In this document: positions 6,157 to 9,707 of the stretch, piece after piece
Numbering within the stretch: the first letter of the stretch is position 1
How the letters are laid out: each line of letters starts with the position of its first letter
Source of the DNA: Xenophilus sp. AP218F
Lineage (GTDB): Bacteria > Pseudomonadota > Gammaproteobacteria > Burkholderiales > Chromobacteriaceae
NCBI GenBank assembly: GCA_002213445.1
Contig: NJIE01000006.1
Coordinates: 459 to 64,458 of the forward strand
Direction of reading: 5' to 3'
DNA: 64,000 nucleotides
Translations under genes and position numbers: made by a program
Notes under the pieces: generated by a model
What the model was told of the DNA's origin: nothing
The model's database searches: none
The model's input: only the letters and a program-made list of their open reading frames with translations

Positions 6157-6777
6157 ATGTTCAATTTCAACGTATTTCTGGCCGCGCTCGGCATTTCCGG
6201 CGGCCAGATCATCAGCATCGGTCCGCAAAACGCTTTCGTCCTGCGCCAGGGCATCGGCCGCAGCCATGTATTGCCCATCATCGCGGTGTGCATCATCGCC
6301 GACATCTTGTTGATCACCAGCGGCGTGCTGGGCATGGGCAAGGTGATCGCCAGCGTGCCGGGCTTTCTGACCACCGTCACCTGGCTGGGCGCAGCCTTCC
6401 TGCTGTGGCTGGCGTTCAAGGCGTTCCGCTCGGCGGTTCGGCCCGGCGCCATGTCGCTGGCCGGCGGCGTGGAGCGCGACCGCAAGCGCGCCATTCGCAC
6501 CATCCTGATGGTGACGCTGCTCAATCCCTATGTGTGGCTGGATACCGTGGTGCTGATCGGCGGCGTATCCACCGTCTACGGCGAGGAGGCGATGCTGTCC
6601 TTCCTGCTGGGCAGTCTGGCCGCTTCGGTGCTGTGGTTCTGCAGCATCGGCTTTTTCGCCGGCAAGCTCGCGCCCTTGTTCCAGAAAGAAAGCAGTTGGC
6701 GGGTGCTGGACGTGGTCATCGGCGTGGTGATGCTGCTTACCGCCAGCCTGTTGGTGTGGAATTACGGTTTGCGCTGA
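6157..6777 (+). CDS. argO: LysE/ArgO-family arginine (basic amino acid) exporter
   Basis: The 206-residue integral inner-membrane protein has about six hydrophobic segments. It carries the LysE/ArgO signatures SIGPQNAFVLRQG near the N-terminus and LLNPYVWLDTVVLIGG in the middle. The family exports arginine, lysine or toxic analogues such as canavanine. An AGGAG Shine-Dalgarno lies 8 nt before the ATG. An AT-rich leader with a TATAAT box precedes it and a strong terminator follows. ArgP, encoded 2.6 kb upstream on the other strand, is the likely activator. The last 41 bp are overlapped antisense by the repeat-protein gene coming from the right. Confidence 0.92.
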   Translation: MFNFNVFLAALGISGGQIISIGPQNAFVLRQGIGRSHVLPIIAVCIIADILLITSGVLGMGKVIASVPGFLTTVTWLGAAFLLWLAFKAFRSAVRPGAMSLAGGVERDRKRAIRTILMVTLLNPYVWLDTVVLIGGVSTVYGEEAMLSFLLGSLAASVLWFCSIGFFAGKLAPLFQKESSWRVLDVVIGVVMLLTASLLVWNYGLR

Positions 6778-8686
6778 GACCCGCGCGAGGCGTGTTCGCA
6801 AACGGAGCCGACCGAATGGTCGGCTCCGTTTTTTTGGGCCGCGCGGCGGGTGGCCCCATTGCGGCCAGTCTGGCGTTGCCCGAACCGGCGACCTCCACCT
6901 GCACGCGGCTGTCGCTCATCGCCGCGCTGTCGATGATTTCATCCAGCAACCGGCCGTTTTCCAGCCTCAGGCTTCGCGCGTCGACGTTGGCGCTGCCCTG
7001 CAGCGAGACGGCGCCGCCGAGCGCGTGGATGCGGGTTTCGACGTCCAGGCACTTGTCCATCAGTTCGCCATCGCGAATCTCGGCGTCAAGTGTCGCGCCT
7101 GGCGGCGGGCCGATATTGGCCGAGCGGTCTATCACCAGGCTGATCGCGGACTGGCTGATCGACTCGGCGTCGATGATCTCGTCCACCAGCTCCCCGGAGC
7201 GAATGCTCAGGGCCTCCGCCGCGACATTGGCGCTGTCCCGCAGCGCGACGCGCATGCTGCTGCGGGCGACGGCTCGCTCCGAATCGACGATTTCGTCAAT
7301 CAGCTCGCCGCCGACGATGCTCAGCCGCCGGGCGCGGACATTGCCGCTGCCTTGCAGGCTGACGCTGAGATTGCTGAGCAGAAAAGCATTGCCGTCGAGC
7401 ACCTCGTCGATCAGCTCCCCTTCTTCGATCGAGACCTCGCGGGCGTCGGCGTTGGCGCTTTGCTCCATCTGGATGTGGATGGAGGCGCGCGTGAATCGCT
7501 CGCCGTCCACGGTTTCGTCTATCAGTTCGCCCTCCCGGATGAACAGCGCATCGCTTGCGACTTGCCCCGAACGGCTCAGCTGGATGGCCAGCGCGCTGTC
7601 GCGAACGTCCTCGGCGTCGATCAGCTCGTCTATCAGTTCGCCGTCGGCGATTCGCACGCCGCGCGCCATGCTGGCGTTGCCGGACTCGTGGAAACGCAGC
7701 CGGATCCGGCTATCGGCGATCAGGCCGCCGTCCACCGCTTCGTCCACCAGCTCCGCGTCGTCGATGTCCAGCTCTTCGCCGGCGGCATTGGCGGAATGAA
7801 GCAGCTGAATATCGATGCGATTGCGCTCCAGGCTGCGGCTGTCGATCATTTCGTCTATCAGCTCCGACTTGAATAGCCGGGTGGCGCGAGCCTGAACATT
7901 GCCTGTCCGCTCGTTTTCGATGCGAACCTCGCTGTCGGCCAGGCCGTAATCGACGATCTCGTTGATCAGCTGTCCGCTGGCGATGGTGAGCATGCCGGCG
8001 CGCGGCGAGGTCGCGCCGACGTTGCCGCTGCGTTTCAGCGCCACCTCCAGGCAGCCGTGCTCCAGCGTGCGCCATGCGTCGCCGGGGGCGTTGATCAGCT
8101 CTTCGATCAGGCTGCCGCCGCCGATGTGCAAATGGCTATCCGGCAAGGCGAGCGCCACATTGGCCGAGTCCTCGATCCGCAACCGGATATGCGCGCCGCG
8201 CTCGATCGGGCCGCGGATGAGGTTGGCGATCAGGGCGGGCTCGGCGTCGCCTTGCTGCTCGCTCAATTCGCCGGCGGCGCTGATATTGCGCTCGCCAAGC
8301 ACGAGCTGGCGGCGCACGGCGACGTTGGCGCTGTTCTGGATCAGAATGTCGACACCGGCCCCCGCGCCGACATGGCTGATCAGGTTGGGAATCAGCTCGT
8401 TCGTCTCGTCTTGCCAGTGGGCGGCGTCCAGACTCAGGTTGGCGCTGTCGCAAATCAGGATGGCCAACTGCCGGCCGCCCAGCGCCTGCAACGGGCGAGC
8501 AAAAGCGTAAGCCTGCCAGCTGCCGCCGTCGCGTGAGAAGAACATGCCTTGCAGCCGTTGCCCGCCGGCTGGCTGGCAAGTCAATGGGAGAGGCGGGCGC
8601 TGGCAGCTGGTCGGCGCGCTGCCGGCTGCGTTCATGTTGCCGGCGGACAGGCTGGCCAGCAGCGACAGGGTGAGGGCAAACCGCAT
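6737..8686 (-). CDS. Secreted repeat protein of unknown family (SAN/ELIDE repeats)
   Basis: I do not recognise a family for this 649-residue protein. It begins with a signal peptide (hydrophobic core LTLSLLASLSA, likely cut near residue 20). From residue 81 to 604 it consists of about 14 imperfect units; in the core, spacing between units is 37-38 residues. Each unit has an alternating hydrophobic/polar strand, then S-A/G-N-V/A, a second short strand, then an acidic GELIDEIID-like box. SAN/SGN/TGN triplets start at residues 81, 119, 174, 220, 261, 298, 335, 373 (SGQ), 410, 447, 485, 522, 565 and 602; ELIDE-type boxes start near 192, 239, 275, 312, 350, 387, 424, 461, 499, 541 and 579. A beta-solenoid or amyloid-like fold is inference. 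The last 39 residues are basic and low-complexity, run through the argO terminator and overlap argO, so they may reflect loss of the original stop. No clear Shine-Dalgarno precedes the ATG. Confidence 0.8.
   Translation of the reverse strand: MRFALTLSLLASLSAGNMNAAGSAPTSCQRPPLPLTCQPAGGQRLQGMFFSRDGGSWQAYAFARPLQALGGRQLAILICDSANLSLDAAHWQDETNELIPNLISHVGAGAGVDILIQNSANVAVRRQLVLGERNISAAGELSEQQGDAEPALIANLIRGPIERGAHIRLRIEDSANVALALPDSHLHIGGGSLIEELINAPGDAWRTLEHGCLEVALKRSGNVGATSPRAGMLTIASGQLINEIVDYGLADSEVRIENERTGNVQARATRLFKSELIDEMIDSRSLERNRIDIQLLHSANAAGEELDIDDAELVDEAVDGGLIADSRIRLRFHESGNASMARGVRIADGELIDELIDAEDVRDSALAIQLSRSGQVASDALFIREGELIDETVDGERFTRASIHIQMEQSANADAREVSIEEGELIDEVLDGNAFLLSNLSVSLQGSGNVRARRLSIVGGELIDEIVDSERAVARSSMRVALRDSANVAAEALSIRSGELVDEIIDAESISQSAISLVIDRSANIGPPPGATLDAEIRDGELMDKCLDVETRIHALGGAVSLQGSANVDARSLRLENGRLLDEIIDSAAMSDSRVQVEVAGSGNARLAAMGPPAARPKKTEPTIRSAPFANTPRAGLSANRNSTPTGWR
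6801..6835 (+). terminator. Intrinsic terminator of argO, embedded in the opposing repeat-protein gene
   Basis: A perfect 13-bp stem (6801-6813 with 6818-6830) with a GAAT loop is followed by a T run to 6835. On the minus strand the same bases are read as codons for the last part of the repeat protein, which is unusual for a terminator hairpin. Confidence 0.9.
6875..8446 (-). repeat. Tandem coding repeats of about 111-114 bp
   Basis: The repeat units of the secreted protein are visible in DNA as recurring TCGTCTATCAGCTC-like blocks about 111 bp apart on the plus strand. Nine consecutive intervals from the unit at residue 261 onward are 37, 37, 38, 37, 37, 38, 37, 43 and 37 residues. Outer units are more divergent (38, 55, 46 and 41 residues). 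Unit sequences differ a good deal at DNA level, so the array is old and not freshly expanded. Confidence 0.88.
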
Positions 8687-8759
8687 GGTCGAAGAGGGGA
8701 GAGTTGGCGTTGCCCCGCATTCTCTCCCCGCTCAATGCTTATGTCATTACTCTGGGGGA

Positions 8760-9599
8760 TTATTTTCCAGCGCCATTCGCCAGCGCGTAATGCAGCAGCT
8801 GTTGCAGGCCTGGCTTTTCCATGGCCTGCGCCGCGTAGCACAGGCCGACGCGGCGGCTGAGCGAAGGCCCGTCCAGCGGGCGGGAGATAACGCCGGGATA
8901 GTCTTGCGGCAGCGAGGCGGGCAGCAAGGCCACGCCCAGGCCCGCCGCCACCATGCGCAAGGCCAGGGTGAGCGAGCCGGCGTTGGCGGCGTAACCGAGC
9001 GCCTCCCCGGCGCTGCCGTACAGGGCCAGCAGGCGCTGGTGCGACGGGTGGTCCGGGCAGGTGATCCAGTCGGCCTGTCCCAGCGCGGCGAGATCGGTCG
9101 CGGCCTGCCGCTCCAGCGGATGGCCGGCCGGCATGGCCAGCACGAAGTTTTCCTCCCAGAGCGGCAAGAACAGCTCGTCTTCGCAGCGCGCGTCTTCGGA
9201 CGCCAGGCGGGCGTCGCCGGCGCAGCCATCGACCAGCGTCAACAGCAGCAGCGGGGAGGCTTGTCGCGCCAGCCGCAGGAAGGCTTCCACCTGGCCTGGC
9301 CCCAGGTCGGCCTCTATGCCTATGCACAGCGGCAGGCAGCTGTCGCGCTTGCGAAACAGCTGCCCCAGCGCTTCGGCCTGCTCGACCAGCCGTTTGGCTT
9401 GCGGGTAAAGCAAGCGGGCGTCGTCGCTGACGCTGACGCCGCGGGCCTCGCGGGTGAACAGGGTGGCGCCCAGCGCGTCTTCCAGTTGGCGGATGGTGAC
9501 CGACAAGGTAGGCTGGGTCAGAAACAGCCGCTGCGCCGCCAGCGTGATGCTGCGCTCTTCGAATACGGCGATGAAAGCCTTGAGTTGGCGAATATCCAT
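8760..9599 (-). CDS. LysR-family transcriptional regulator
   Basis: The 279-residue protein has an N-terminal LysR helix-turn-helix (MDIRQLKAFIAVFEERSIT, then TQPTLSVTIRQLEDALG) and a substrate-binding effector domain ending with the usual ALRMVAAGLGVALLP stretch. The ATG at 9599 is preferred over the upstream one at 9617 because LysR proteins begin with this MD-x-RQL motif. It is divergently placed from the short-chain dehydrogenase gene at 9708, with about 108 bp between starts, the classic layout for a LysR regulator and its target. The effector is unknown. Control of the SDR gene is inferred from position. Confidence 0.9.
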   Translation of the reverse strand: MDIRQLKAFIAVFEERSITLAAQRLFLTQPTLSVTIRQLEDALGATLFTREARGVSVSDDARLLYPQAKRLVEQAEALGQLFRKRDSCLPLCIGIEADLGPGQVEAFLRLARQASPLLLLTLVDGCAGDARLASEDARCEDELFLPLWEENFVLAMPAGHPLERQAATDLAALGQADWITCPDHPSHQRLLALYGSAGEALGYAANAGSLTLALRMVAAGLGVALLPASLPQDYPGVISRPLDGPSLSRRVGLCYAAQAMEKPGLQQLLHYALANGAGK

Positions 9600-9707
9600 A
9601 GAAAAAATCGATGCCACGTAGAGGAAATTATCATTTTTCAGCTTGTTCGGCGGTAACTATACTTGCCTTCATCGCCTGATATCTAATTTTTCTATATGGA
9701 GAACCCC

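Follow-up and report, generated by a model that had tools for sequence, protein, structure and literature searches.

Among the described systems closest to the protein reported here, curli repeats have a length of about 22 residues, and in some parallel β-helix enzymes Asp is catalytic. RTX β-rolls bind Ca2+ between stacked turns (PMC6891781). Here, we analyzed a stretch of 64,000 nucleotides (nt) from Xenophilus sp. AP218F (assembly GCA_002213445.1, contig NJIE01000006.1, positions 459 to 64,458 of the forward strand; termed the window herein, with coordinates counted from its first letter). It contains on its minus strand a coding sequence at 6737..8686 (649 amino acids [aa], with its ATG at 8686) for a protein of repeated units, each with an S-A/G-N turn and an acidic GELIDEIID box (SAN/ELIDE protein), with relatives at 29 to 36% identity in Bacilli and Xanthomonas. 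With moderate confidence, we propose that this gene encodes a secreted, non-enzymatic parallel β-helix protein of an undescribed repeat family that serves as a rigid binding scaffold or adhesin-like element and was acquired horizontally.

RESULTS

The SAN/ELIDE protein contains a regular tandem repeat

A preliminary description of the DNA placed the open reading frame (ORF) at exactly these coordinates, to which we add the minus strand, and its account of SAN turns and ELIDE boxes proved accurate, with both motifs far more frequent than in shuffled sequences. The [ST][AG][NQ][VAI] motif has thirteen sites, the first starting at residue 119 and the last at residue 602, and successive sites are separated by 55, 46, 41, 37, 37, 38, 37, 37, 38, 37, 43, and 37 residues, and a further SAN is located at residue 81; the last nine spacings join ten units, as had been described for the inner units (spaced 37, 38, or 43). 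Within residues 80 to 612, S[AG]N occurs 12 times (mean of 0.49 and maximum of 6 in 5,000 shuffles), and the identity at a lag of 37 residues is 0.151, compared to 0.141 as the highest value at lags 5 to 119 over 1,000 shuffles. A loose pattern for the full box (E/Q/R-L-I/V/L/M-D/N-E/K-x-I/V/L/M-D/N) matched the protein 10 times (mean of 0.0011 and maximum of 1 in 10,000 shuffles). The idea that each unit comprises two rungs, with the SAN half resembling the ELIDE half, was rejected, as a profile of the SAN half made no ELIDE half stand out.

The predicted structure is a parallel β-helix

The best AlphaFold2 (AF2) model of the protein was confident and periodic, not devoid of periodic units, and thus supports the β-solenoid suggested in the preliminary description; a confident periodic model was also obtained for a relative with 36% identity. 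The predicted model is all-β with a periodically repeated strand-turn pattern, and it aligns structurally with solved parallel β-helices over most of its length, the structural neighbors including alginate lyases, polygalacturonases, RbmB, and AlgE epimerases. The regular array of ten units spaced 37, 38, or 43 (residues 248 to 611; 6854..7945, minus strand) lies in the most confident region (predicted local distance difference test [pLDDT] of 92 to 99 per 10-residue block, residues 241 to 600). It is preceded by an N-terminal cap and irregular units (residues 47 to 247; 7946..8548, minus strand), which are aligned with the relatives and have predicted strands from residue 47 on, and it is followed by a non-repeat C-terminal tail (residues 612 to 649 and the stop codon; 6737..6853, minus strand) that is predicted to be disordered (pLDDT of <50). 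The N terminus bears a putative signal peptide (about residues 1 to 22; 8621..8686, minus strand), recognized by eye as it had been before; residues 1 to 26 have a pLDDT of <50, and the leaders of the relatives are hydrophobic as well.

The repeat matches no characterized family

Searches of Pfam and NCBIfam with the window protein returned chance-level matches only (best E value of 0.07). PHROGs and PADLOC gave no match for it to an E value of 0.1 and nothing for three of the proteins, the best hit among Protein Data Bank (PDB) sequences had an E value of 1.2, and a family profile had no match to PDB sequences up to an E value of 10. A match of the SC116 relative (see below) to the NCBIfam PrpF model was taken as chance (E value of 0.0012; 17.7 bits against a cutoff of 440). 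Narrow text searches of the literature did not find “GELIDE” or any account of such an orphan secreted β-solenoid in these taxa. Because neither these searches nor the family libraries show a match, we call the repeat undescribed; no confident match to a characterized repeat family appeared in Pfam, NCBIfam, PHROGs, PADLOC, or the PDB sequences, and the unrecognized repeat type of the preliminary description thus stands. We conclude that this is a real, undescribed repeat that belongs to a known fold class.

Relatives are scattered over distant bacteria

The repeat unit had been described as fitting no known family, which holds for the libraries searched, and we add that relatives of the protein occur in other genomes. 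A scan with short peptide patterns, an approach that reaches close relatives only, covered 84,980 species with a single genome each and gave five loci: one in Paenibacillus sp. SC116 (36% identity to the window protein) and four in Xanthomonas species (29 to 30%). SC116 is reported to be a soil isolate of the class Bacilli (PMC9670967). Profile searches were then evaluated on sampled genomes, for which the counts per group overlap and the spread is a lower bound. In the genus Xanthomonas, 4 of 35 genomes gave hits (the four already known). For SC116, its genus gave one hit among 19 genomes (SC116 itself), its family 4 among 344, and its class 3 among 398, and the genus of the Bacilli genome G784 gave 2 among 26. 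Together, eleven genomes carry the gene: that of the window, four Xanthomonas, SC116, its family members G1425, G1454, and G1476, and its class members G784 and G713. The G713 copy is truncated (a 201-aa ORF at locus L041, G713:C12:107126-107908), whereas its congener G784 has a full-length copy. In the class of the window organism, the profile found only its own genome among 369, and in its order, a search with the single protein found only this genome convincing among 399. Weak matches in the genus (E values of 0.006 to 0.85 in six genomes, all with stops) and in the order (E values of 0.003 to 0.01 in five genomes, 25 to 39% identity over short stretches) were taken as chance.

The four other full-length Bacilli proteins are 70 to 83% identical to the SC116 protein, all five having 831 to 870 residues, and the Xanthomonas proteins have about 435 residues. 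Eight close pairs of relatives have ratios of nonsynonymous to synonymous substitution rates (dN/dS) of 0.22 to 0.43, one Xanthomonas pair with very few changes; the genes of the relatives are under purifying selection. Neither the window protein (against plasmids and phages), nor the SC116 protein (against phages), nor two alignments (against viral contigs) had a match. Against plasmids, the SC116 protein matched three Pseudoalteromonas records with its N-terminal domain only. The Pseudoalteromonas lipoprotein-like proteins (L080:2953-3969 and L081:3019-3732) contain DGSGDI repeats of about 18 to 19 residues and resemble this domain. Profile matches in the PDB that would make the N-terminal domain of the Bacilli relatives a copper chaperone or repressor (E values of 0.005 to 0.15) were rejected, the folds being unrelated.

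Conservation of the acidic box

Units of standard spacing that fit a box-like pattern all have E at position +18 and D at position +21 (7 of 7 units in the window protein and 28 of 28 distinct Bacilli units). L at +15 and D at +17 are found in the same 7 and 28 units, but the pattern itself constrained positions +13 to +17, besides presupposing standard spacing, and left only E+18 and D+21 free to vary. We therefore recounted the box in the window protein over all SAN-anchored units, starting at residue 119, and located it without requiring any letter. The 13 units include 12 with L, 9 with D, 10 with E, and 11 with the final D, and 8 have D, E, and D together; in SC116, the corresponding numbers for 12 units are 10, 9, 10, 10, and 8. 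This full recount lowers the apparent invariance of the box; our weighting of the readings was left unchanged, given that the box persists in the array from residue 261 onward. Xanthomonas contributed four distinct units to the first count, of which three, representing one unit from three species, keep D, E, and D; by eye, the box is retained in no more than about three units of each Xanthomonas protein and is largely missing from the rest. Four pairs of units were reciprocal between the window and SC116 proteins, with 174/406, 373/571, and 565/763 at matching places and 335/496 not, and the 43-residue unit at residue 522 has an SC116 counterpart of the same length and place at residue 720. 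The claim that every unit is orthologous between the two proteins was dropped, as the other inner units were not reciprocal picks.

The gene lies in a segment absent from congeners

The gene is flanked by what we take to be a convergent LysE-type exporter gene (6157..6777, plus strand) and, upstream on the same strand as the SAN/ELIDE gene, a LysR-type regulator gene (8760..9617, minus strand). The LysR gene is present in 17 of 18 congeners; at 11 of these 17 loci it adjoins LysE with no SAN/ELIDE gene between them, and at the other 6, LysE was not seen in the fetched stretch. The LysE-LysR gap in congeners is about 10 to 80 bases between aligned parts, with about 310 in locus L048, which carries another insertion. 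This insertion (congener G009) is about 270 bases long, has ∼19-base terminal inverted repeats, and occupies the same gap as the SAN/ELIDE gene in the window. The segment at 6772..8793 (edges approximate) is absent from the 11 congeners, and the LysE product ends in NYGLR before the stop in the window, compared to NYGL[SA][AS]PLPL before the stop in these 11; the end of LysR also differs from that of the window in the ten congener loci shown. The simplest reading is an insertion of about 2.0 kb between LysE and LysR, the alternative being loss elsewhere. As a consequence, the last residues of the SAN/ELIDE frame overprint a terminator-like hairpin and the LysE end. The third-codon-position G+C content (GC3) of the gene is 0.832, that of five neighbors 0.815 to 0.878, and the window copy is probably a horizontal acquisition, old enough for its GC3 to have come to match its surroundings.

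The non-repeat last ∼38 residues are encoded across this hairpin (6800..6835, plus strand; a 14-bp stem followed by TTTT downstream of the LysE-type gene; −26.7 kcal/mol), which was not among the terminators listed by a terminator scan, and across the 3′ end of the convergent LysE-type gene. At the other end, an inverted repeat (8696..8729, minus strand; −19.7 kcal/mol on the plus-strand letters) surrounds the Shine-Dalgarno-like sequence GGGGAGAG, which lies ahead of an ATG that is out of frame (8720), and inspection of the sequence gave no obvious Shine-Dalgarno element for the in-frame ATG at 8686.

The ORF lists around the gene in Bacilli and Xanthomonas, examined by eye, show different neighbors in different groups; the gene thus seems to move by itself, and none of the neighbors suggests itself as a partner. 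The SC116 relative is followed by genes of the STM4015, STM4014, STM4013, and STM4012 families (L013:9897-14211); by eye, with no family scan made there, none were seen beside other relatives. Upstream of the gene in two Bacilli genomes lies a lipoprotein-like gene of similar sequence (L039:5916-6854 and L040:5689-6558), which did not appear in the other ORF lists inspected. In locus L014, the only one inspected for it, what we take to be the plant-inducible promoter box matched 19 times (≤2 mismatches) against 24 expected and not once before the gene.

DISCUSSION

Most likely, the protein is a rigid scaffold that is non-enzymatic and mediates binding outside the inner membrane, a role that we infer. 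One 37-residue unit would correspond to one coil of about four strands, with the S-A/G-N turn and hydrophobic positions stacked inside or at a corner. The GELIDEIID box would supply strand 3 and, after a turn, the beginning of strand 4, and with this placement its carboxylates would line up along one edge. With the usual rise of 4.8 Å, about 14 coils would make a rod of roughly 7 nm. Beyond the inner membrane, this rod may provide a stiff scaffold for binding or an adhesin-like spacer, and its stacked acidic box would require counter-ions, for which Ca2+ is one candidate.

Several observations weigh against this interpretation. Of the five AF2 models computed for the window protein, two were of low quality (mean pLDDT of 57.7 and 56.0), and Foldseek gave no match with an E value of 1e-3 or better (best PDB E value of 0.015). 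The Pfam scans of the SAN/ELIDE proteins recognized no anchor domain, no neighborhood common to the groups points to a function, and the term non-enzymatic is used because the array is regular and no family matches, for these two reasons only. Acidity as a whole is not conserved, which weighs against the simple argument of the preliminary description from high acidity to cation binding: the isoelectric point is 4.7 for the window protein and 4.05 to 4.5 for the Bacilli proteins, and the four Xanthomonas proteins are basic (8.4 to 9.0). Finally, among 19 genomes of the genus, a single-protein search found the gene convincingly only in that of the window, and synonymous sites are saturated in comparisons with the window gene, so that the dN/dS values cover the relatives only.

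This rarity, together with the overprinted hairpin and LysE end, the lack of an obvious Shine-Dalgarno element before the in-frame ATG, and the truncated copy in G713, would fit an acquired remnant without function in this genome, which we consider quite unlikely given the intact frame of 649 codons with its ten full-box matches, its neighbor-like GC3, and the selection on the relatives' genes (which does not include the window copy). A carbohydrate-active enzyme (lyase, epimerase, or hydrolase) built on a parallel β-helix would explain why many structural neighbors are such enzymes, and the conserved acids could in principle be catalytic. However, the window protein and proteins P0002 to P0004 matched no Pfam or NCBIfam enzyme family above its cutoff, including polysaccharide lyase, GH28, and epimerase profiles, and a five-row alignment, with its register uncertain in places, has 60 invariant columns, none with H, K, R, Y, or W; nearly all invariant D and E residues fall within the repeated box. 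An enzyme is therefore distinctly improbable.

In an RTX-like protein, Ca2+ would be needed for folding after export, and the ELIDE box would be a new kind of ion site; the D, E, and D of the box are strongly conserved in the window and Bacilli proteins, and carboxylates aligned along one edge would repel each other without cations. We regard this as unlikely, since GGxGxD has a count of zero, a Sec-type leader seems by eye to be present, and most Xanthomonas units lack the box; the predicted structure carries no information on ions. A subunit of curli or another functional amyloid, to which tandem strand-turn-strand units with S and N at the turns might point, is very improbable: the units have 37 residues, many of them charged, and visual inspection of the ORFs listed for the first 20 kb of the window, with no dedicated search, showed no genes for curli export. 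The faint curli likeness noted in the preliminary description was not borne out, as the S-x5-QxGxxNxA pattern has a count of zero and curli gave no row in the Pfam scan, and neither was its amyloid-like option, as the single long chain is predicted to fold as one solenoid. To return to the non-enzymatic β-helix scaffold, a more specific version is doubtful at present, in which the helix would be stapled by cations, with 37-residue coils and a D/E/D acidic ladder binding divalent ions, and its single stand-alone gene would have moved between Gram-positive and Gram-negative bacteria.

The SAN/ELIDE family, found very patchily in both Gram-positive and Gram-negative bacteria, adds to the secreted β-helices a repeat family that is named by no library searched. 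Its conserved acidic box offers a specific and cheap question, that of Ca2+ binding, and the confident model is a start for structural work.

Compared to known systems, the window protein has no toastrack-type domain (DUF4097/DUF2154/DUF2807; PDB 4OPW and 4QRK), in which units have 18 to 19 residues compared to 37 here. The SAN/ELIDE part had no profile similarity to toastrack (hhalign probability of 0.1 with eight DUF4097 proteins), PF13349 gave no row for the window protein in a Pfam scan to an E value of 10 (whose filters drop most matches above 0.1), and no toastrack structure is among the 50 listed VIA structural neighbors of the window model, a list that excludes nothing. Parallel β-helix passengers, tailspikes, and polysaccharide enzymes (Vag8, Sf6 tailspike, AlgE, and RbmB) share 5 to 12% sequence identity with it in the listed rows, and no catalytic or trimerization part like theirs was recognized. 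For the adhesin PfbA of Streptococcus pneumoniae (3zpp and 4mr0), a sequence relation was not found, and the SAN/ELIDE proteins have no visible anchor domain. Curli repeats share the strand-turn-strand with S and N, whereas the acidic box has no counterpart in them. RTX β-rolls differ in their 9-residue units and in the GGxGxD motif, which the SAN/ELIDE protein lacks, and resemble it in being regular solenoids with conserved acidic residues.
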